64,000 bases of DNA from Thiogranum sp. (GCA_030148775.1 JASBST010000020.1:1-64000); one strand, 5' to 3'. Counted from the stretch's first letter, positions 50,327 through 64,000 are shown. Notes: generated by a model from the letters alone, not told the origin. Program-made: numbers and translations.

Positions 50327-50402
50327 GGCCAGGTAGCTCAGTTGGTAGAGCAGGGGACTGAAAATCCCCGTGTCGGCAGTTCGATTCTGTCCCTGGCCAC
50401 CA
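50327..50402 (+). tRNA. tRNA-Phe (GAA)
   Basis: 76 nt with encoded CCA. GGCCAGG/CCTGGCC acceptor stem, anticodon loop CTGAAAA (GAA), T-arm GCAGTTCGATTCTGT. Its 3' half is the probable insertion site of the island that follows. Confidence 0.95.
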
Positions 50403-52568: not shown

Positions 52569-52943
52569 TTATCCCGGTAGCTTGGCCGGTCGTCCCGCTT
52601 TAAGTTCACCACTTTTCCCGGTAGGCCGTAGCCAAGGTCCTTGCAGATGGGGTAACCATTGCTCTTCCTTCTGCAGCGCAAACACCAGGGCACGCATAGT
52701 CAACCAATGTCGATAACGGGTGCTAGCTGAATATTCTTCTGTTCGTGTGGCCAAATACCAACGCAGATATTTCACCCGCCACTGGTAAGGCCCTGCGTGC
52801 CACCGTTTCCAGATCAGCTCTGCGATATGCTTGGCTCTTTTCAAATGTGCGTTGACAGAGCCACGACGCGAACCCGGCAGGGATCTCACTAACAGTGAAT
52901 GCGCTTGGCGCGAAGCCTCCCGTTGATTGGCAGGGCTGGCCAC
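52569..52943 (-). CDS. Uncharacterised basic protein coupled to the second integrase
   Basis: A 124-aa basic protein (HLKRAKHIAELIWKRWHAGPYQWRVKYLRWYLATRTEEYSASTRYRHWLTMRAL) with no known domain. The ATG overlaps the stop of the integrase gene upstream by one base, so the two are one unit. The helical, Arg/Trp-rich sequence suggests DNA binding or a helper of recombination; this is inference. Confidence 0.6.
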   Translation of the reverse strand: MASPANQREASRQAHSLLVRSLPGSRRGSVNAHLKRAKHIAELIWKRWHAGPYQWRVKYLRWYLATRTEEYSASTRYRHWLTMRALVFALQKEEQWLPHLQGPWLRPTGKSGELKAGRPAKLPG

Positions 52944-53893
52944 TACTTGGCACTCCCTATATAGGCTGCGGCAACCTCACTTCGGCTGTGTCCCAGCTCC
53001 TGTGCAATGACGAGTCTTGCGGATTGATCGGATTGCTTATCAGCTTGTCGATACCCGGCAACAGTAGGGGCCGGGTATCCAGTGATCTGCTGGTAGCGAT
53101 CACAGGCGTAGGCTGCGCGCAGATCATGAAAGCCAGCCAGGTTATTTTCATCGGAAACTGATCGCCAGATGGAATTGGCATGATCCCGCCATTGGCGAAA
53201 GTTCAAGGTTATGGGAATCAGGTTGCGTGCATCCCCCTGGATCTCGGCAACGCGTGTTAGGAGTTTGATGCCGTAGTTCGAGACGGGCACCCAACGATCC
53301 ACCTCGCGCCCTCTGCCGCCCTTGGTGCCTTCGGTGATATTGATCTTGCCCTGCTGCAGTGCCTGGTCTAATGCGGCGCGGGTATCCAGTAGGGACGCTT
53401 CACGAAAGCGTAAGCCAAACTCGCGAGCTATCGCTGAAACGGCGGCAACATTCAATTCACTACGTTCGGCTAAGCTTTTCTGCGCACACCTCAGCTTGTC
53501 TCTATCCATGCCCTTTGGCGCAGTGCTGCGCACGTTCACCCGTTGGCCCACGAATTCTGCCGGCTGTATGCGCAACAGGCGATCACCCCGCAAGGTTTCC
53601 AATACCACGTTCACCGTGGACAACAGATTCTGCGCATAGGCCACCGCCATCCTGCCCGCTTGTACTTGCTTCATCAGGTGACTCCCATAGCGGCTAATCA
53701 ACTCAAGACTCACCTTGCAGGCATCCTTCACTTCCAGCTTGTTGGCGAAGTTTACAAACTGACCCCATCGTTCCGCGTGTGCGGCGCGGGTGGCAAAATG
53801 CCCCGCACCGTAGCGGTCCGCCAGAGCGTTCTTGCCTGCCCAGTCCATCTTCTTGCCATAGCCGAAATTTCTTCGGCCACCGACCTTGCCCAT
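52943..53893 (-). CDS. Second tyrosine recombinase (Phage_int_SAM_2/Integrase_1 type)
   Basis: A 316-aa integrase-domain protein of a separate lineage. It has Arg in GLRFREASLLDTR, His-x-x-Arg in HDLRAAYACDR, His in ELGHSRSEV and Tyr in AAAYIG, so the active site seems complete. The N-terminal half (RAAHAERWGQFVNFANKLEVKDACKVSLELISRYGSHL) is the core-binding domain. It points back toward the first integrase and may mark a nested or older element. Confidence 0.8.
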   Translation of the reverse strand: MGKVGGRRNFGYGKKMDWAGKNALADRYGAGHFATRAAHAERWGQFVNFANKLEVKDACKVSLELISRYGSHLMKQVQAGRMAVAYAQNLLSTVNVVLETLRGDRLLRIQPAEFVGQRVNVRSTAPKGMDRDKLRCAQKSLAERSELNVAAVSAIAREFGLRFREASLLDTRAALDQALQQGKINITEGTKGGRGREVDRWVPVSNYGIKLLTRVAEIQGDARNLIPITLNFRQWRDHANSIWRSVSDENNLAGFHDLRAAYACDRYQQITGYPAPTVAGYRQADKQSDQSARLVIAQELGHSRSEVAAAYIGSAK

Positions 53894-55373: not shown

Positions 55374-56522
55374 ATGACCCAACCCGCGCGAGCTGGTACA
55401 TATATCAGCCAACCACAAGGTTACCGTGCTTTTCTACCGGCAGCTCTGCCACCGGTGCCGCCCTTGCGCGTGGATGAAGAAACACAGGATTTACTCTCCA
55501 AGGCGGATCGCGCGCTCGGCCGTTTGGATGGTTCCATACAAACACTGCCCAACCCGGACTTGTTCGTCTTCATGTACGTCCGCAAAGAGGCGGTGCTTTC
55601 CAGCCAGATTGAGGGTACACAGAGCTCTCTGAATGACGTGCTGGAAGCCGAAGTCCATATTCTGAATACGGAGCGGCCACGGGACGTCAACGAAGTACTG
55701 AATTATGTAACCGCTATGAACCATGGAATGCAGCGTCTCGAAGACTTGCCTGTATCTGTACGCCTGATCCGCGAAATCCACGAGCGCCTTTTAAAAGGCG
55801 TGCGGGGTGCGAATCATCAGCCCGGCGAACTGCGCACCACACAAAACTGGATCGGTCCTGCCGGTTGTGTGTTGAACGAGGCAACTTTCGTTCCACCACC
55901 CCCCCATGAAATTGCCGCCGCGTTGGGTGGATGGGAAAAATTCGTTCACGACGCAGTCCCCATGCCCATTCTGATCAAGATTGCCCTTGCCCATGCCCAG
56001 TTCGAAACCATTCACCCCTTTCTGGATGGTAACGGGCGTGTCGGGCGGTTGCTGATTACCTTTCTGCTTTGTGAGCGTGAGATCCTGCAAAAGCCCGTGC
56101 TCTATATATCTCATTACTTTAAACGTCATCGGCAGCGTTATTACGAACTGCTGCAGAATACTCGGGATAATGGGGACTGGGAAAACTGGACTAAATTCTT
56201 CCTGGGCGGTATCACCGAAGTCTCACAAGAGGCCACGGAAACTGCACGGCGCATTGTCGAGCTGCGGGAACGACACCGCGCCTTGATCACCACGGAATTC
56301 GGGCGTGTTGCAGCCAATGGCCTGACGGTGCTGGAATCCCTGTATTCCCGGCCCATCATTTCCGTGAATGACATTGTGGATATGACCGACGTGAGTTTCA
56401 CCGCCGCCAGCCAGTTAATGCGCAAGTTTGAAACCCATGGATTGCTCGCCGAGACCACCGGTCAAGCGAGAAACCGGCGGTTTCGCTATGGGGCGTATAT
56501 CGATTTGTTTGTGGATGGATAA
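55374..56522 (+). CDS. Fic-domain AMPylator-type protein with C-terminal winged helix
   Basis: A 382-aa Fic protein. The N-terminal region carries the inhibitory motif SSQIEGTQSS (about residue 80, class II, in cis). The catalytic Fic motif HPFLDGNGRVGR (about residues 220-231) is complete. The C-terminal 70 residues form a wHTH (ISVNDIVDMTDVSFTAASQLMRKFETHGLLAE), suggesting DNA binding or autoregulation. Fic enzymes of this type usually AMPylate a host protein; the target is unknown. Its place beside a restriction system fits a defence or stress role. Confidence 0.92.
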   Translation: MTQPARAGTYISQPQGYRAFLPAALPPVPPLRVDEETQDLLSKADRALGRLDGSIQTLPNPDLFVFMYVRKEAVLSSQIEGTQSSLNDVLEAEVHILNTERPRDVNEVLNYVTAMNHGMQRLEDLPVSVRLIREIHERLLKGVRGANHQPGELRTTQNWIGPAGCVLNEATFVPPPPHEIAAALGGWEKFVHDAVPMPILIKIALAHAQFETIHPFLDGNGRVGRLLITFLLCEREILQKPVLYISHYFKRHRQRYYELLQNTRDNGDWENWTKFFLGGITEVSQEATETARRIVELRERHRALITTEFGRVAANGLTVLESLYSRPIISVNDIVDMTDVSFTAASQLMRKFETHGLLAETTGQARNRRFRYGAYIDLFVDG

Positions 56523-56553: not shown

Positions 56554-57594
56554 GTGAACAAAGTTTTCATTAGCTCAGTAATTAGCGGGTATGAGTCCTA
56601 CCGGCAGGCAGCCAAAGAGGCTGTTGAGCTTATGGACCACAGGCCTGTTATGAGTGAAAACTTCGGCGCGCGCCCATACCCATCGGAAGTGGCATGTATA
56701 ACGGAAGTCGAGCAGAGCGACATCTACCTGCTTATTCTGGGTGGAAAATATGGCTTTGAAACGGATGAAGGAATATCGGTAACGCAAGCGGAATTCCGCG
56801 CGGCCAAAGCAGCGAATCGAAATATTTTGGCTTTCGTGCAGCGGTGCGAAATGGAACCCAGACAGGCAGAGTTCAAAGGGGAAGTGGAAGCCTATCAAGA
56901 CGGCTTCTTTCGGGCTGCTTTCGATAGCCCGGTACAACTGAAGGATGAATGTATACGCGCCATGCGGCAGTTGGAATCTATGAGCCAAGCCATATCGGAA
57001 GGTGACTTCCAAAAACGAATAGATAAAGTGATAACGGCACTTGACGACAGTTGGGCAGATGAGCCTGCGTTAGTCGCAGTATTCTTACCACAACCAGAAC
57101 GCATTGTGGATATCGTCAAGCTGGAAGACGACCTGGATGGTATGTTCAGAAAACTATGCGATGCCGGTTTAGCGAAACTCAGGGATGGTTACGAGGCAAT
57201 AGGAAAAGCGGACTGGACGGGCTTAAAGACTGGGCGTTATCAGCTGGCCTGCTTTGCGGATGGGCTAGTGGCCCTGGCGACCAATCCGACCTTAAAGAAT
57301 GGCAATACCTTTTCAAGCAATTTTGCGCCTCCCAGCCATATACAGCAGGTCGCAATAGGGTTTTCAGAATTGATTAACACCAATTCAGGTTACATACATA
57401 TTGGTGTTCGCAACATGGGCACTGCCCATGTTGCCGAGTTTCCCGGCGGCAGTTCTTTTAGTCTGAAAATGTTTGGCGAGGATCAGGCCGGTTTTAATCG
57501 TTTATTTGTACCGCTCACCAAAGGTATTTATCAGGAATGGATCGAACAATGTGTTAATCGCATGAAACGAATTTTCCCTTATGGAAACAATTGA
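56554..57594 (+). CDS. DUF4062 protein, predicted conflict-system component
   Basis: A 346-aa protein. The N-terminal DUF4062 domain (KVFISSVISGYESYRQAAKEAVE, ENFGARPYPSEVACITEVEQSDIYLLILGGKYGFETDEGISVTQAEF) has the TIR-like Rossmann layout seen in predicted immunity and signalling proteins. The remaining 200 residues are not recognised and may be an effector or sensor. GTG 56554 follows AAAGGAG at good spacing. A 101-aa gene follows after 12 nt. It is 31 nt after fic on the same strand. Confidence 0.82.
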   Translation: MNKVFISSVISGYESYRQAAKEAVELMDHRPVMSENFGARPYPSEVACITEVEQSDIYLLILGGKYGFETDEGISVTQAEFRAAKAANRNILAFVQRCEMEPRQAEFKGEVEAYQDGFFRAAFDSPVQLKDECIRAMRQLESMSQAISEGDFQKRIDKVITALDDSWADEPALVAVFLPQPERIVDIVKLEDDLDGMFRKLCDAGLAKLRDGYEAIGKADWTGLKTGRYQLACFADGLVALATNPTLKNGNTFSSNFAPPSHIQQVAIGFSELINTNSGYIHIGVRNMGTAHVAEFPGGSSFSLKMFGEDQAGFNRLFVPLTKGIYQEWIEQCVNRMKRIFPYGNN

Positions 57595-57927: not shown

Positions 57928-59592
57928 ATGGCAGCAAAAAAGAAGATCACGAAGAAAAAGGCCACCAGAAAGAAGTCGGCAAATATGCCGGTAAATGGCG
58001 TGGCGGACCTGATAAAGGAGCTATGGCAGGCGGCGGTGGCACTGCGCGGCTCCATTGAGCCGGCGGATTACAAACGTTATGTATTGCCGATCATTTTTCT
58101 GCGCTTTTTGTCCATGCGTTTTGAAGAGCGCCACCAGCAGCTGGAGAGCATGGTCCGGGAGCCGGAGAGCGAGTATTACACTACTAAAAAGAAAATAATC
58201 AAAGCCATACTCAATGACCCTGATGAATACCGTAGTAGTGGCGCCTTCATGGTGCCGGAAAAGGCGCGCTGGTCTTATATCCTGAAAAACGCGCAGGCCG
58301 ATAATATCAAGACCATCCTGGATGATGCGCTGGAATTACTGGAAAAGACCTATCCCGACAAGCTACGCGGGTTATTGCCCCGTGTCTATGCGGGTTCCAA
58401 TATGGGGCGTGAGGATGTCTCCGGCCTGGTTAACCTGTTTTCCAAGGATATCTTCAAGCAGGATCATGGCGGCCTGGATATGCTGGGTCGGGTATATGAG
58501 TATTTCATCGGTGAGTTTGCCTCCAGCGAAGGCAAGCGGGGCGGGGAGTACTTCACACCGGAAAGCATTGTCACCTGCCTGGTGCGTATGTTAGAACCCG
58601 AGGAAGGCATTGTCTATGACCCCTGCTGCGGTTCCGGCGGCATGTTTGTGCAATCGGATATCTTCACCCATCACAACCACAAACTGTCCTTTGTCGGTCA
58701 GGAATCCAAGGACTTCACCTACCGCCTGTGCAAGATGAATCTGTTTATCCACGGCATCGATGGCAATATCGGAATGGGCAATACCTATACCGACGACAAG
58801 CACGCCACAGTCAAGGCGGACTACATCCTGGCCAATCCACCCTTCAATGATGGCGCAAAGAGTGAAAAAGGCTGGGGCGCCGATCGTATCCAGAACAAAG
58901 ACCCGCGCCGGGATCTGGGCACGAAAAATGAGAAAGGCGAAAAGGCCTATATGCCTCTGGCGCCGCGCAACGCCAACACGATGTGGATCATGCACATGCT
59001 GCATCACCTGAATGAAGGCGGCACGGCAGGCTTTGTTATGGCTACCGGCGAGTTGTCCAATTCGGAAACGGCGCGCCTGGCGGTGCGCAAGATGCTTGTG
59101 GAAGAAGGTTATGTGGATTGTATCGTACAGCTCTCCGGCCAGCTCTTTGCCAATACCCAGATCCCTTGTGCACTGTGGTTTCTATCCAGGAACCGCAACG
59201 GGAAAAAAGGTTATAGAAAGCGCAAGGGCGAGGTGCTGTTTATCGATGGCCGCAAGCTGGGTGCACTGATCCCGGGTAGCCGTAAGCAAAAAGAATTATC
59301 TGAAGAGCAATTGGAGACAATCGCTGCCGTTTATCGGGAGTTCAAATATAAAGGCATGCCCGATGAGGTCGCCGGATTTTGCCGGACGGCGACGCTGGAT
59401 GAAATTCGGGAACACAATTATGCTCTGACACCGGGCCGGTATGTGGGTACGGAAGAGCCGGAAGACGAGGATGAGCCATTTGATGTGCGGATGCCGCTTC
59501 TTTTGAAAAAATTAGACAATGAATTCAAACGCGGCAGGAAACTTGAAATATCTATCAAGAATAGCCTAAAGGAGGCGGGGCTTGAATTCTGA
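57928..59592 (+). CDS. hsdM: Type I restriction-modification methyltransferase subunit HsdM
   Basis: N6-adenine DNA methyltransferase, 554 aa. A Lys-rich leader (AAKKKITKKKATRKKS) precedes the HsdM N-domain (ELWQAAVALRGSIEPADYKRYVLPIIFLRFLSMRFEE). The SAM motif is YDPCCGSGGMFVQS (about residue 233) and the catalytic motif NPPF (about residue 308, ILANPPFNDG). Its stop overlaps the hsdS start by 11 nt. Confidence 0.96.
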   Translation: MAAKKKITKKKATRKKSANMPVNGVADLIKELWQAAVALRGSIEPADYKRYVLPIIFLRFLSMRFEERHQQLESMVREPESEYYTTKKKIIKAILNDPDEYRSSGAFMVPEKARWSYILKNAQADNIKTILDDALELLEKTYPDKLRGLLPRVYAGSNMGREDVSGLVNLFSKDIFKQDHGGLDMLGRVYEYFIGEFASSEGKRGGEYFTPESIVTCLVRMLEPEEGIVYDPCCGSGGMFVQSDIFTHHNHKLSFVGQESKDFTYRLCKMNLFIHGIDGNIGMGNTYTDDKHATVKADYILANPPFNDGAKSEKGWGADRIQNKDPRRDLGTKNEKGEKAYMPLAPRNANTMWIMHMLHHLNEGGTAGFVMATGELSNSETARLAVRKMLVEEGYVDCIVQLSGQLFANTQIPCALWFLSRNRNGKKGYRKRKGEVLFIDGRKLGALIPGSRKQKELSEEQLETIAAVYREFKYKGMPDEVAGFCRTATLDEIREHNYALTPGRYVGTEEPEDEDEPFDVRMPLLLKKLDNEFKRGRKLEISIKNSLKEAGLEF

Positions 59593-60928
59593 CTGGCAGC
59601 GAGTACAAGTTTCCGATCTCGAAAAGGAAGGCATCCTTCTGGTTCAGGATGGTAACCATGGTGAATACCGACCACGTCCAAACGAGTTTGGTTCCGGCAA
59701 TACTGCCTTTATTCGAGCCGCAGATATGGCGGAAAATCGGGTGCTATTTGATACGGCGGGTCGTATAAATGATGTAGCCGTGGAGCGTATAACTAAAGGT
59801 AAAGCGGAAGGTGGTGATGTAATCTTTTCACATAAAGGAACCGTGGGGAAAATTGCCATAACACCGCTTGATTCACCACCATTCGTATGTTCGCCGCAAA
59901 CAACATTTTGGCGAACCCTGGACACGAATAAGCTTGATCGCAAGTATCTTTATTGTTTTATGCGTTCCTGGGAATTTAGTAAACAGTGGGTGGCTAGGAA
60001 GGGTGAGACAGACATGGCCGACTATGTCAGTCTAACTGCCCAACGGAATCTGCACGTAATTTTGCCCTCTATCGCCGAACAACGCGCCATCGGTGAGATA
60101 CTTGGCACCCTTGACGACAAAATCGAACTCAACCGCCAAATGAACCACACCCTGGAGGCCATGGCCCAGGCCATCTTCAAATCCTGGTTTGTGGACTTCG
60201 ACCCCGTCACCGCCAAGGCGGAAGGCCGTCAGCCCTATGGCATGAACGCCGAGACCGCCGCGTTGTTTCCGTCGCATTTTGTGGAAAGCGAGCTGGGATC
60301 GATTCCAGAGGGATGGAGGGCTTCCGAAATCGGCAAGGAGGTAAGAGTTGTTGGCGGCGGCACACCCCGAACAAAACGAGCAGAATTTTGGGACGGCGGA
60401 AAACATTGTTTTGTAACGCCCAAGGACATGTCGGGCTTACCTTCTGGGGTTCTCTTGGGGTCAGATCGGCACATCACAGATCTTGGGGTTAATGCAATTA
60501 GCTCGAAACAATTACCTGTTGGCACAGTGCTATTGTCTTCCCGGGCGCCTATTGGATACTTGGCGATTGCTTCTGTTCCGGTAAGTGTTAACCAGGGAAT
60601 GATAGCGATGGTTTGCGAAGGTGGTTTATCCAACTATTTCACGTTGAACTGGACACACTTTAATATGGATGAGGTTGAATCGCGAGCGGGAGGAACAACT
60701 TTCCCGGAGATTAGTAAAAAGAGTTTTCGACCCATTCCGTGCTTGGTGCCGATTCCGGAACTTGTACAAACGTTCAATAACATTGTAGGACCAATATATA
60801 GAAAGATTGAGAATAACTTGAGAGAATCAGGGGCACTGGAAACAATTCGCGATTCACTCCTTCCCAAACTTCTCTCCGGCGAAATAAGAATTAAGGGCGC
60901 CGAGAAAGCTGCGGAGGCCGTTGCGTGA
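59582..60928 (+). CDS. hsdS: Type I restriction-modification specificity subunit HsdS
   Basis: DNA-recognition subunit, 448 aa. Two target-recognition domains (about residues 1-160 and 230-390) are separated by the conserved helix SIAEQRAIGEILGTLDDKIELNRQMNHTLEAMAQAIFKSWF, and a second helix (GALETIRDSLLPKLLSGEIRI) closes the protein. A TTG at 59582 is the start, as AAAGGAGG lies 6 nt upstream and no ATG is near. The recognition sequence cannot be read from sequence alone. Confidence 0.94.
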   Translation: MNSDWQRVQVSDLEKEGILLVQDGNHGEYRPRPNEFGSGNTAFIRAADMAENRVLFDTAGRINDVAVERITKGKAEGGDVIFSHKGTVGKIAITPLDSPPFVCSPQTTFWRTLDTNKLDRKYLYCFMRSWEFSKQWVARKGETDMADYVSLTAQRNLHVILPSIAEQRAIGEILGTLDDKIELNRQMNHTLEAMAQAIFKSWFVDFDPVTAKAEGRQPYGMNAETAALFPSHFVESELGSIPEGWRASEIGKEVRVVGGGTPRTKRAEFWDGGKHCFVTPKDMSGLPSGVLLGSDRHITDLGVNAISSKQLPVGTVLLSSRAPIGYLAIASVPVSVNQGMIAMVCEGGLSNYFTLNWTHFNMDEVESRAGGTTFPEISKKSFRPIPCLVPIPELVQTFNNIVGPIYRKIENNLRESGALETIRDSLLPKLLSGEIRIKGAEKAAEAVA

Positions 60929-61647
60929 GCGATCTCTATAACATTTACTGCGATGAATCCTGTCATCTTGAGCATGATGGTATACCCGCTATGTCGCTGG
61001 GAGCGGTGTGGTGTGATCAATCTCAGGTGAGGCGGGTTGCGGATGAGTTGCGCGACCTGAAATCAAAGTACAGGCTGTCCCGTCAGTTTGAAGTTAAATG
61101 GACCAAGATTTCACCGAAACGGTTGGATTTATACCAGGCTCTAATCAGCTACTTTTTCCAGGAACCCGCGTTGCATTTCCGGGGCGTGGTGATACCGGAT
61201 AAGAGATTATTGCGCCATGGTGAATTCGGGCAGGACCATAATACGTTTTATTACAAGATGTTCTTCGTATTACTGAAGCATATTTTTGATCCTGATTCCA
61301 AATACGAAATTTATCTCGACATTAAGGATACGCGTAGCCAGGACCTTGTTTCTGGACTACGTAATGTCTTGAGCAATAGCCGGTATGATTTTGATCGGGA
61401 GCATATCCTGCGCATTCAGCAGATTCGATCCCATGAATCAGAATTGATGCAATTGACGGATTTGTTTATCGGCGCGCTATCCTATTTACATCGAGGATTA
61501 ACGACTAGCCAGGCAAAGCTGACACTGATCGATCAAATTCGAGCCCAATCGGGATATCGACTAACCCAGAATACTTTATATCGCGAGGATAAATTTAATC
61601 TGTTGGTATGGCAGGCGCAGGACGCGAATGATCATGTCGTTTCCTGA
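60925..61647 (+). CDS. DUF3800 protein inside the hsd operon
   Basis: A 240-aa DUF3800 protein. The N-terminal YNIYCDESCHLEHDG, central YEIYLDIKDTRSQD and C-terminal RSHESELMQLTDLFIGALSYLHRG hold acidic residues at the usual places of this family, which is predicted to have an RNase H-like fold and turns up in mobile and defence loci. GTG 60925 overlaps the hsdS stop by 4 nt, so it is translated with HsdS. Function unknown; an accessory nuclease is a reasonable guess. Confidence 0.8.
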   Translation: MSDLYNIYCDESCHLEHDGIPAMSLGAVWCDQSQVRRVADELRDLKSKYRLSRQFEVKWTKISPKRLDLYQALISYFFQEPALHFRGVVIPDKRLLRHGEFGQDHNTFYYKMFFVLLKHIFDPDSKYEIYLDIKDTRSQDLVSGLRNVLSNSRYDFDREHILRIQQIRSHESELMQLTDLFIGALSYLHRGLTTSQAKLTLIDQIRAQSGYRLTQNTLYREDKFNLLVWQAQDANDHVVS

Positions 61648-62104
61648 TCTGGTTGCATTCGGCGGTGATTGGGAAACCTATGTAGATGAACTGTATAGGA
61701 TTTATCTGTCGGATATTGTGAACGGTGGATTACATTTTAATGGTCTCCGCATTAGTTGCCAGTATCGTCCTCCCAGCCAGGGCAAGCATTTCGGTTTCTG
61801 GCATGTGATTTCCGAAGGCCGGGATGAAGAAGAACGAACACCAGATTTCCGGCGCTGCGAACGGATTCGATGGATACGTCACCTCATTGAGGGTGCCGGT
61901 TCCAATGAACGCATTAGCTGGTGGGAAAATACGCGCGGTAGAGATACTCGTGTCGTTATATGGGCTGAAGAAGAAGACTTTGCGGTGATTCTGGCCAAAC
62001 GGCGTGGTTATTACGTGTTAAAGACCGCCTATTGTCTAAGATCACACCGGCGTGCAACCTTCAGGAAAGAGCGCGAGGATTTTTGGAATAGCCAGAAAGG
62101 CTGA
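61628..62104 (+). CDS. Uncharacterised protein with possible BECR/RelE-like nuclease fold
   Basis: A 158-aa protein. The C-terminal part (TRVVIWAEEEDFAVILAKRRGYYVLKTAYCLRSHRRATFRKERE) shows the beta-strand ... LKTAY ... Lys/Arg pattern seen in phage barnase/EndoU/colicin-like (BECR) nucleases. The N-terminal part is not recognised. ATG 61628 lies inside the DUF3800 end (20-nt overlap), so the pair is coupled. The nuclease call is inferred from pattern only. Confidence 0.5.
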   Translation: MIMSFPDLVAFGGDWETYVDELYRIYLSDIVNGGLHFNGLRISCQYRPPSQGKHFGFWHVISEGRDEEERTPDFRRCERIRWIRHLIEGAGSNERISWWENTRGRDTRVVIWAEEEDFAVILAKRRGYYVLKTAYCLRSHRRATFRKEREDFWNSQKG

Positions 62105-62134
62105 AGCCGCCCCAGGTAAACCTGGCACGGCTTC
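62103..62134. repeat. Nested hairpin after the accessory genes
   Basis: GAAGCCG ... CGGCTTC encloses CCAGGT-AA-ACCTGG, giving a long two-part stem at the stop codon of the upstream gene. No T run follows, so it may slow transcription or protect the mRNA 3' end rather than act as a full terminator. Confidence 0.45.
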
Positions 62135-62502
62135 GAATGCTCCTTCTACACATGGTAGATGAGACTATAGGTAGTATCGGAGAAACTGGGCGGTTCTTCA
62201 ATTTTTTATTTGTCATCGCACCTTGTCTGACAGGCTAAAAGTTCGTATGTATTTGAATCTATTTGATTATGTTATTTAACGGGTATTTGATTTAGTGACG
62301 CAAATAAGTAGCTAATTTAGCTCGTAGAGCTTCGCTTAGGAGCTTAAATAACCTTGCTTATTGAATAGGAATCGAGGTAATTCTCTCTCCACGTAATTGA
62401 TACCGCTGATTTGCCTGGCGGACTCAGCGGTCAGATCTTTGGGGATTATCCACCAATCGCAGAGAACCAGCGGGTGTATATGATGCCGGCACGAGGGATG
62501 GT
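62135..62502. other. AT-rich gap before hsdR
   Basis: About 370 nt with no supported gene, clearly richer in A and T than the flanks. TAGCTAATTTAGCTCGTAGAGC near 62307-62330 includes short inverted copies. A separate hsdR promoter probably lies here. Confidence 0.35.
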
Positions 62503-64000
62503 ATGAGCAAAAGAGGCACGGAAACCGAGTTCGAGCTCACTACTATTGAGCGCCTGCTCCAGCAGGACTACGCCTATACCCATGGTGAGGAAATCGAGCG
62601 TGACCATAGGGAGGTGGTCTTGCGAGATATTCTTAAGGCCCACCTTTCCAACCGCTATCCTGATCTACCTGACACCAGTATCGACGAAGCAGTGACCCGG
62701 CTTGCCCGTCCTGAGGGTGTGGATACGCTGCGGCGTAATCGCCAATTCCATGAAGACCTGACCAAAGGATTAGAAGTCCGGGTGGAGCGGGAAGATGGTA
62801 GCGTCGAACATCCGCTGATCTATGGCATCAATTGGGATGAACCGGAGAAAAATGATTTTCGGGTGGTGAATCAGTTTCCGGTCCGCGGGCAAAATGATCG
62901 GCGGCCGGATATCGTGATCTTTGTCAACGGCCTGCCGCTTGTAGTTTTTGAGTTAAAAAATCCCTATGCCATTCAGCCCACGGTGGAAGATGCGCTGAAT
63001 CAAATCGGCCATTACACGAACGACATTCCGCAGTTATTTGAATTTAATGCATTGACGGTCGTCTCGGACGGGATTACCACCTTGCATGGCGTGTGGACCG
63101 CCGAACAAGAATGGTATGCGCCCTGGAAATCCATTGATGGTATCAATGTGGAAGCGAATACCACGGGTAGCATGAAGACCCTGGTCGAGGGTTTGTTTCC
63201 CAAAGCCCGCCTGCTGTCCTATGTACGGGATTTCATCCTGTTCGAGGTGGCCAATGAAAAGATCACCAAGAAGGGCGCCAAGTATCACCAGTATTTTGCG
63301 GTGGGTATCGCCGTTGAAAAAACCATTGAAACCGTATGCGCCGGATCGGACAAACGCATCGGGGTGATCTGGCATACCACGGGCTCGGGAAAGTCGTTAT
63401 CCATGGCCTTTCTGGTGGGTATTCTGCGTCAGCGGCCGGAGTTGGAAAATCCGACCTTTGTTATGCAGGTGGATCGCACCAATCTGGACGATCAGCTCCA
63501 TGACCAGTTTGTGGCGGCGCGCGGATTGGTTGGCGATGTCAAACACGCGGAGTCTGTTAACCAATTGAGAGATTATTTGCAGACTGAGGGTGGGGAGGTG
63601 GTGTTTACCACCATTGAGAAATTCCGGCTAAAAAAGAATGGGGATGGCATTACAGAGGCGGAACACCCGGTACTCTCGGAGCGATCTAACGTTATCATTA
63701 TTGCTGACGAGGCGCACAGTAGCCAGTATGGGTTTCTACAGGGATTTGCACGCTATCTGGCAGAGGCGCTCCCTAACGCCCGGCGTATTGGATTTACGGG
63801 TACGCCGATCAGTTTTTCTGCTGCCGATACGGTCGAAGTATTCGGAGATGTGATTCACAGCTATGACATTAAACAATCTCAGGACGATAAGGCTACTGTA
63901 AAAATATTTTACGACCCCCGGCAGATCAAGCTGCGACTCAACCACGAGGACGTTGACGCGGCATTGAATGAAATTACTAGTGGCACTGAGATCGATGAAC
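62503..64000 (+). CDS. hsdR: Type I restriction endonuclease subunit HsdR (N-terminal part)
   Basis: Motor and nuclease subunit; 499 codons are present and the gene continues past the right edge. The nuclease domain has Asp and Glu-x-Lys in RRPDIVIFVNGLPLVVFELKNP (about residues 134-150). The SF2 helicase part has Walker A HTTGSGKSLSMAF (about 290), IIADEAHSSQYG (about 400) and FTGTPI (about 431). GAGG precedes ATG 62503. It completes HsdRMS, with two accessory genes and an AT-rich gap between hsdS and hsdR. Confidence 0.95.
   Translation, partial: MSKRGTETEFELTTIERLLQQDYAYTHGEEIERDHREVVLRDILKAHLSNRYPDLPDTSIDEAVTRLARPEGVDTLRRNRQFHEDLTKGLEVRVEREDGSVEHPLIYGINWDEPEKNDFRVVNQFPVRGQNDRRPDIVIFVNGLPLVVFELKNPYAIQPTVEDALNQIGHYTNDIPQLFEFNALTVVSDGITTLHGVWTAEQEWYAPWKSIDGINVEANTTGSMKTLVEGLFPKARLLSYVRDFILFEVANEKITKKGAKYHQYFAVGIAVEKTIETVCAGSDKRIGVIWHTTGSGKSLSMAFLVGILRQRPELENPTFVMQVDRTNLDDQLHDQFVAARGLVGDVKHAESVNQLRDYLQTEGGEVVFTTIEKFRLKKNGDGITEAEHPVLSERSNVIIIADEAHSSQYGFLQGFARYLAEALPNARRIGFTGTPISFSAADTVEVFGDVIHSYDIKQSQDDKATVKIFYDPRQIKLRLNHEDVDAALNEITSGTEIDE

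Follow-up and report, generated by a model that had tools for sequence, protein, structure and literature searches.

A conserved two-hairpin RNA accompanies homologues of phage P1 rlfA and rlfB in a type I restriction operon and recurs as solitary copies in phages

Two genes lodged between hsdS and hsdR of a type I restriction-modification (RM) operon of Thiogranum sp. were found to be homologues of rlfA and rlfB of coliphage P1, and to be directly followed by a structured RNA, conserved among relatives and not catalogued before, solitary copies of which are carried by many phages. On the basis of sequence comparisons, and by analogy with known systems, it is tentatively proposed, with a confidence slightly short of even, that RlfA, RlfB and the RNA form one portable defence-like module, in which the RNA would restrain the two putative nucleases and the phage copies would act as decoys.

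The operon, both RNA elements and the two nearest upstream genes lie on the plus strand of the window, i.e. the whole stretch of 64,000 nucleotides which was analyzed. It starts with hsdM, encoding the type I modification methyltransferase (57928-59592; Pfam N6_Mtase, 4.9e-90, and HsdM_N, 9.3e-24), followed by hsdS, encoding the specificity subunit (59582-60928; Methylase_S, 7.9e-27, and Specificity_I, 1e-114), by the rlfA homologue, a DUF3800 gene with a GTG start (60925-61647; DUF3800, 1.3e-12), by the rlfB homologue, encoding a protein of 158 aa (61628-62104), and, after a gap, by hsdR, which covers positions 62503-64000 of the window (HSDR_N, 5.9e-39, and SWI2_SNF2) and extends to 65544 on the contig, where it is intact and encodes 1013 aa. 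All three RM genes are present and intact. Successive overlaps of 11, 4 and 20 nt connect the genes preceding the gap, the first of them holding only if the TTG start of hsdS is used. Gene positions, order and overlaps had already been given in a preliminary description of the stretch, and were borne out by gene calls and Pfam matches. The operon is preceded by a DUF4062 gene (56554-57594; Pfam DUF4062, 4e-23) and by a defence neighbour, a gene for a Fic protein of the SoFic type (55374-56522; PADLOC SoFic, 4.6e-122); Fic genes are also located near rlfAB, or the associated RM genes, in three other loci (L028, L061, L075). Farther upstream, a recombinase-like ORF, recognized by eye (52943-53893), and a tRNA gene (50327-50399) suggest that the RM block may reside on an integrated element.

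Comparison with the PADLOC models revealed that the DUF3800 and 158 aa proteins match, over nearly their entire length, PDC-M04A (1.7e-92) and PDC-M04B (7.8e-59), which define the candidate system PDC-M04 when encoded, as here, by adjacent genes. They share 50% and 41% identity with P1 RlfA and RlfB, respectively. The P1 genes, called rapA and rapB in P7, are located behind repL under the control of C1 and their annotation mentions a possible link to lytic replication; their knockdown by CRISPRi left plaquing unaffected, in a screen which also missed repL (PMC10695390). The PDC entries stem from a guilt-by-embedding survey (Payne et al. 2024, preprint) and are mostly unvalidated (PMC12988326; also PMC13092281). 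The literature search, which did not extend to most subscription papers and preprints, returned no experiment on anti-phage activity of PDC-M04, no paper naming it, and none connecting rlfAB with PDC-M04 or with RM operons. The protein pair is known as a candidate, while its identity with P1 rlfAB, the RNA and the phage orphans are apparently new, although priority is not certain.

Folding of the DNA behind rlfB in the relatives identified two hairpins directly 3' of the gene, which define the class-1 RNA. In the window this element spans positions 62088-62169 (79.0 bits by cmsearch, with the window in the training set) and is very strongly supported by covariation. Hairpin 1 (62102-62135) includes the rlfB stop codon and its sequence varies freely among relatives; hairpin 2 (62139-62162) reads CTCCTTCTACACATGGTAGATGAG and is near invariant, the same sequence or a close variant being found in the relatives, P1 included. 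When 37 sequences were compared, 13 of the 17 pairs were found to change on both sides, with a covariation score of 0.305, against 0.120±0.010 for shuffled controls and 0.04-0.07 for slid pairings; for 70 sequences aligned to the model, an alignment which leans towards the structure, the corresponding values were 14 of 17 pairs and 0.404. One stem position of hairpin 2 is often occupied by a non-standard pair, mostly A opposite C (in 15 of the 37 sequences and in 17 of the 70); located beside an invariant C-G pair, it is possibly a recognized feature rather than noise. The preliminary description had reported a hairpin after the 158 aa gene, which is indeed present, is more stable than shuffled sequences (z -3.0) and corresponds to hairpin 1; the RNA of which it is part had been missed, though it is the most informative portion of the locus.

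Of 90 loci, about 70, P1 among them (L014, 4460-4541, 66 bits), have a match to the class-1 model behind rlfB, whereas 53 control loci containing PBECR2, other DUF3800 or hsdR genes have none; a 54th control, L160, is the window's own locus and was not counted. Variants of the RNA track the RlfA clades, being distributed among class 1, class 2 (see below) and a form present in L065, L066, L068, L080 and L081. No Rfam 15 family matches the class-1 or the class-2 element, at gathering or relaxed thresholds; a ctRNA_pGA1 match (E 0.21, on the opposite strand) was attributed to chance. An intrinsic terminator was discarded, as the hairpin has no T-run and is not among the terminator-like sites of the scan; so were a repeat dispersed in its own genome, the element being single copy, and a recombination or cassette site, each locus containing one copy and none being flanking. 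Weak genome matches of the class-1 model R1 (G105 and G220, 28 bits), devoid of hairpin 2, were also removed. Some rlfB genes appear to be split, truncated or fused, with the RNA behind them retained (L064, 7986-8493; L082, 7935-8288; L083, 3163-3525; L054, 7920-8456).

The two proteins form a conserved pair. Among 84,980 species genomes scanned, 68 RlfB loci were detected, in 65 of which RlfA adjoins RlfB; in an independent genome set RlfB was detected beside 11 of 12 strong PDC-M04A loci, the window's own not counted, and beside none of the weaker DUF3800 matches. The order hsdS-pair-hsdR, which the preliminary description had proposed to look for elsewhere, is found across many phyla: among the 41 loci whose flanks extend for 3.5 kb or more in both directions, type I RM genes flank the pair on both sides in 20 and on one side in 5; these counts, obtained with profiles built from the loci themselves, are probably lower bounds. 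Of 100 whole background genomes, 37 have hsdR above cut-off, so that well under 1% of random 16-kb stretches are expected to contain it. Recurrence of the RM-flanked order in so many phyla indicates that the arrangement is not due to chance.

The pair is also located outside RM genes, as in phage P1, beside a NACHT protein (L017) or beside a DrmD/PLD helicase (L046); when 30 hsdR loci were surveyed, it was present only in the window's own. Within the hsdS-hsdR slot, rlfAB may be accompanied by Kiwa KwaB (L027, 6174-7142) or by a GmrSD/HEC-06-like protein (L038, 8669-10780), and PDC-S08 (L056) and others also occupy the slot, which, as a side reading, accepts insertions of defence genes in general. 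Pairwise distances of RlfA and RlfB are correlated over 81 loci (r 0.81). In 24 type I loci the correlation is 0.95 for HsdM-HsdR and 0.71 for RlfA-RlfB, versus 0.44 for RlfA-HsdM and 0.46 for RlfA-HsdR. Along the RlfA tree, 22 switches between RM and non-RM labels are counted, and well supported branches force no fewer than nine of them. RlfA and RlfB co-diverge as a unit, and only loosely with HsdM and HsdR: with respect to the RM operon, the pair is a tenant and not a subunit.

Structures of both proteins were predicted with AlphaFold2, from alignments which left out the rows derived from annotated phage and plasmid records. The RlfA model (pLDDT 93.7) retrieved 21 PDB matches at E<=1e-3 by Foldseek, all of RNase HII/H2/HIII type (best 5.1e-6), and the protein scores 49.1 bits against the Pfam DUF3800 model, where the cut-off is 21. 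Residues D10, E11, E56, D132 and D179 (numbered with the initial Met) are invariant. An RNase HII-type fold carrying invariant acidic residues is thus predicted for RlfA, in line with the RNase H fold noted earlier for DUF3800 (PMC10910872). The RlfB model is equally confident (pLDDT 95.4), while its resemblance to nucleases is marginal: no Foldseek match to PDB falls below 1e-3, the best being HigB1 of the RelE group (E 0.15), with colicin D found four times (E 0.84-2.1). Comparison by hhalign with 22 PBECR2 domains gave E 2.8e-4 at a probability of 41%; in one scoring mode the value was 22.7, whereas the highest among 40 column-permuted controls was 13 and the reversed profile gave 3.5. No Pfam BECR match exceeds the cut-off, the best member reaching 0.0082 to PBECR2, and L008 scores 14-15 bits to PBECR2/3, where cut-offs are 27-30. 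H59, R70 and R76 are invariant and K53 and T133 near-invariant, a conservation which fits a BECR-type active site. A BECR assignment of the 158 aa protein, as suggested in the preliminary description, is plausible by the HigB1, colicin D and PBECR2 comparisons but stays below the Pfam cut-offs; RlfB is probably a BECR-type nuclease, similar to PBECR2, HigB or colicin D. A gene order unique to this genome, combined with a small protein devoid of any nuclease-like fold, was thus not what was found. No convincing sequence relatives of either protein were detected in PDB, and the sole RlfB match in BFVD is one uncharacterized phage protein. For profile comparison, a search for the colicin D family in 200 genomes gave zero matches, and PBECR3 had too few sequences.

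The class-1 RNA is not restricted to rlfAB loci. In 299 genomes, the model detected three loci which contain rlfAB and three strong matches devoid of it (L180, L181, L183), and the RlfA profile has no match in the genomes of the latter; L183 is located among phage terminase genes, while L180 is near a contig end, its upstream side being incompletely visible. A search of IMG/VR with the hairpin-2 pattern matched at least 120 viral contigs, against none for the reversed pattern. The full class-1 model scores in all 80 of these contigs which were examined; RlfA or RlfB is encoded in the flanks examined in 15, so that about 65 are orphans, although some of them may have partners located farther away. 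The viral RNAs covary as well (0.325, against 0.130±0.009). Phage orphans are mostly intergenic, and no family of flanking genes recurs outside close relatives. Named carriers include two Vibrio phages, phi3T and SPβ, in the last of which the orphan is flanked by yonK and yonN.

Other structured RNAs lie nearby. When 44 phage sources (336 kb) were scanned with Rfam models, DUF3800-VIII or abiF RNA was identified seven times, each at no more than 280 nt from a class-1 orphan, a zone corresponding to about 9% of that DNA; related SPβ-type sites account for five of the seven, which leaves about three independent cases, with a chance probability of about 7e-4. In SPβ-type phages the orphan is divergently oriented, 49-52 nt from DUF3800-VIII RNA (L324, 2371-2561; L325, 1871-2061; L230, L254, L258), and annotation near these RNAs in SPβ and phi3T includes no DUF3800 gene; in L215 and L236 the orphan is 131 and 279 nt from abiF RNA, respectively. 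For the latter, action in trans as an RNA antitoxin is proven (PMC12373285), and an abiF RNA is also carried by cyanophage S-CREM1 (PMC9964418). Genes for tRNA are located within 3 kb of 21 of the approximately 65 orphans, and sometimes abut them (L234, L271, L283, L216).

A second element, the class-2 RNA, is found behind the rlfAB genes of a divergent clade (L006-L013, L132, L133). The window also contains a copy of it, at 62394-62493, in which hairpin 1 is intact and hairpin 2 degenerate; the leave-one-out model R3 matches positions 62394-62463 (23.9 bits, E 8.6e-7), 40 nt upstream of hsdR, while model R2, which includes the window in its training set, scores 62.8 bits. In L140 (1-2184), RlfA, class-2 RNA and hsdR follow each other in that order without rlfB, the start of RlfA being possibly damaged. 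The class-2 copy of the window is likeliest a remnant of an earlier class-2 module, which would have occupied the same slot before being replaced. A general hsdR leader was discarded, the element being absent from 29 other hsdR loci. Orphan class-2 RNAs were observed in bacterial chromosomes without nearby rlfAB (L190, L195, L199, L203), those of L195 and L199 beside other defence-like genes, recognized by eye (DUF1016, RhuM, Doc and a different DUF3800).

In the mechanism put forward, the RNA would bind the nuclease pair in uninfected cells and keep it inactive, in a way similar to the RNA antitoxins of ToxIN and AbiF; alternatively, RlfA might mature the RNA into the inhibitor. Infection would disturb the balance between RNA and proteins, and the nuclease activity thus freed would stop phage growth; phages would respond with solitary RNA copies, able to keep the nuclease neutralized in trans. 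The comparisons establish what the module consists of, the pairing of its proteins, the structure and conservation of the RNA, and the phage orphans with their neighbours; toxicity, inhibition by the RNA, triggering by infection and decoy function are inferred from these, from the trans-acting abiF RNA, from the solitary RNA mimics which phages use as Racrs (PMC10651486), and from embedding of the pair with Kiwa, GmrSD and type I RM genes. Several points count against the proposal: the ToxIN RNA is a repeat array preceding the toxin, while class-1 RNA is present in a single copy, at the 3' end; PDC-M04 is still a candidate; and the BECR assignment of RlfB is marginal. Moreover, the location of the P1 module in a lytic region, together with plaquing unaffected by rlfA/rlfB knockdown (PMC10695390), speaks against regarding it simply as an anti-phage device of bacteria.

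Alternatively, the RNA may be a working part of the system, i.e. the scaffold or guide of a ribonucleoprotein nuclease made of RlfA and/or RlfB, with phage orphans as Racr-like decoys. This explanation, which retains the phage decoys, is the main rival, though a rather unlikely one. Nucleic acid duplexes are the targets of RNase HII-type folds, which RlfA is predicted to adopt; Cas12a2 and type VI-F loci have DUF3800 proteins as accessory components (PMC10910872, PMC12669027); and a near-invariant hairpin 2, next to a freely changing hairpin 1, is expected of a protein-binding handle. However, no variable guide-like segment was recognized in class-1 RNA, and the orphans would have to be pure decoys, yet two strong ones belong to bacterial chromosomes which lack rlfA. 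A cis element within the rlfAB transcript, controlling 3' end formation, stability or translation before hsdR, would agree with a position directly 3' of rlfB and a stop codon within hairpin 1, but appears improbable, as the lack of a T-run, the absence from terminator-like sites and the solitary occurrence of the RNA, both in phages and in bacterial contigs devoid of rlfAB, do not fit it.

The preliminary description had instead envisaged a backup layer working with HsdMS and triggered by failed restriction. The overlap of rlfA with hsdS and the nesting of 20 of 41 well-flanked loci within RM genes, compared to hsdR in 37 of 100 whole background genomes, speak for it; nevertheless half of the loci are outside RM, at least nine context changes are forced by the tree, the pair is found at one only of 30 hsdR loci, and the correlation with RM subunits is about 0.45, against 0.95 for HsdM-HsdR. 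A pair travelling as a unit, and as a tenant, weighs against such coupling, which is unsupported and quite improbable; like the cis element, it fits less well. Least probable of all is that the P1 annotation is correct and that RlfA and RlfB serve lytic DNA replication, having been captured by bacteria: rlfAB is indeed located behind repL and controlled by C1, but the CRISPRi screen, for all that it missed repL too, found it non-essential for plaquing (PMC10695390), P1-like plasmids lose it (PMC6906374), and bacterial rlfAB is located beside defence genes, not replicons. The RNA-restrained module would, in its broadest form, amount to a three-part immunity, with RNase HII-like and BECR-like nucleases under RNA control, opposed by very widespread solitary RNA copies which phages would keep, along with abiF RNA, DUF3800-VIII RNA and tRNAs, in intergenic "RNA antidote" regions; we rate this picture as nearly an even bet.

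Among known systems, type III toxin-antitoxin (TA) systems and AbiF similarly pair a conserved cognate RNA, which is found in phages as solitary copies, with a small protein resembling ribonucleases, and in type III TA systems the RNA is likewise encoded beside the gene for the toxin, the involvement of a toxin being presumed here. They differ in that rlfAB encodes two proteins of unrelated folds and in that neutralization by its RNA is putative; in place of the tandem repeats located upstream of type III toxins, a single copy is found, 3' of the genes. Racr, the RNA anti-CRISPRs, are solitary phage copies of a host-immunity RNA too (PMC10651486), but they are CRISPR repeats with proven inhibition, while class-1 RNAs are putative decoys. 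If these are decoys, many unrelated phages, such as SPβ, phi3T, Vibrio phages and large tRNA-bearing phages, would be predicted to carry RNA antidotes missed by annotation and, should orphan defence RNAs cluster in phages, unexplained intergenic phage RNAs could be used as a search tool, pointing to the host immune system which is countered. The DUF3800 RNAs of Rfam are also structured RNAs tied to a DUF3800 gene; class-1 and class-2 match none of these families, and DUF3800-VIII is a separate RNA, which adjoins class-1 orphans in SPβ-type phages. The PDC-M04 entry consists of protein models only, while the pair of the window has a class-1 RNA, so that an unvalidated candidate gains a defined RNA component. 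P1 rlfA and rlfB differ from the window pair in being located behind repL instead of hsdS, and share with it gene order, overlap and the RNA behind rlfB; a candidate function is offered for two "replication-like" P1 genes, unexplained since their annotation.
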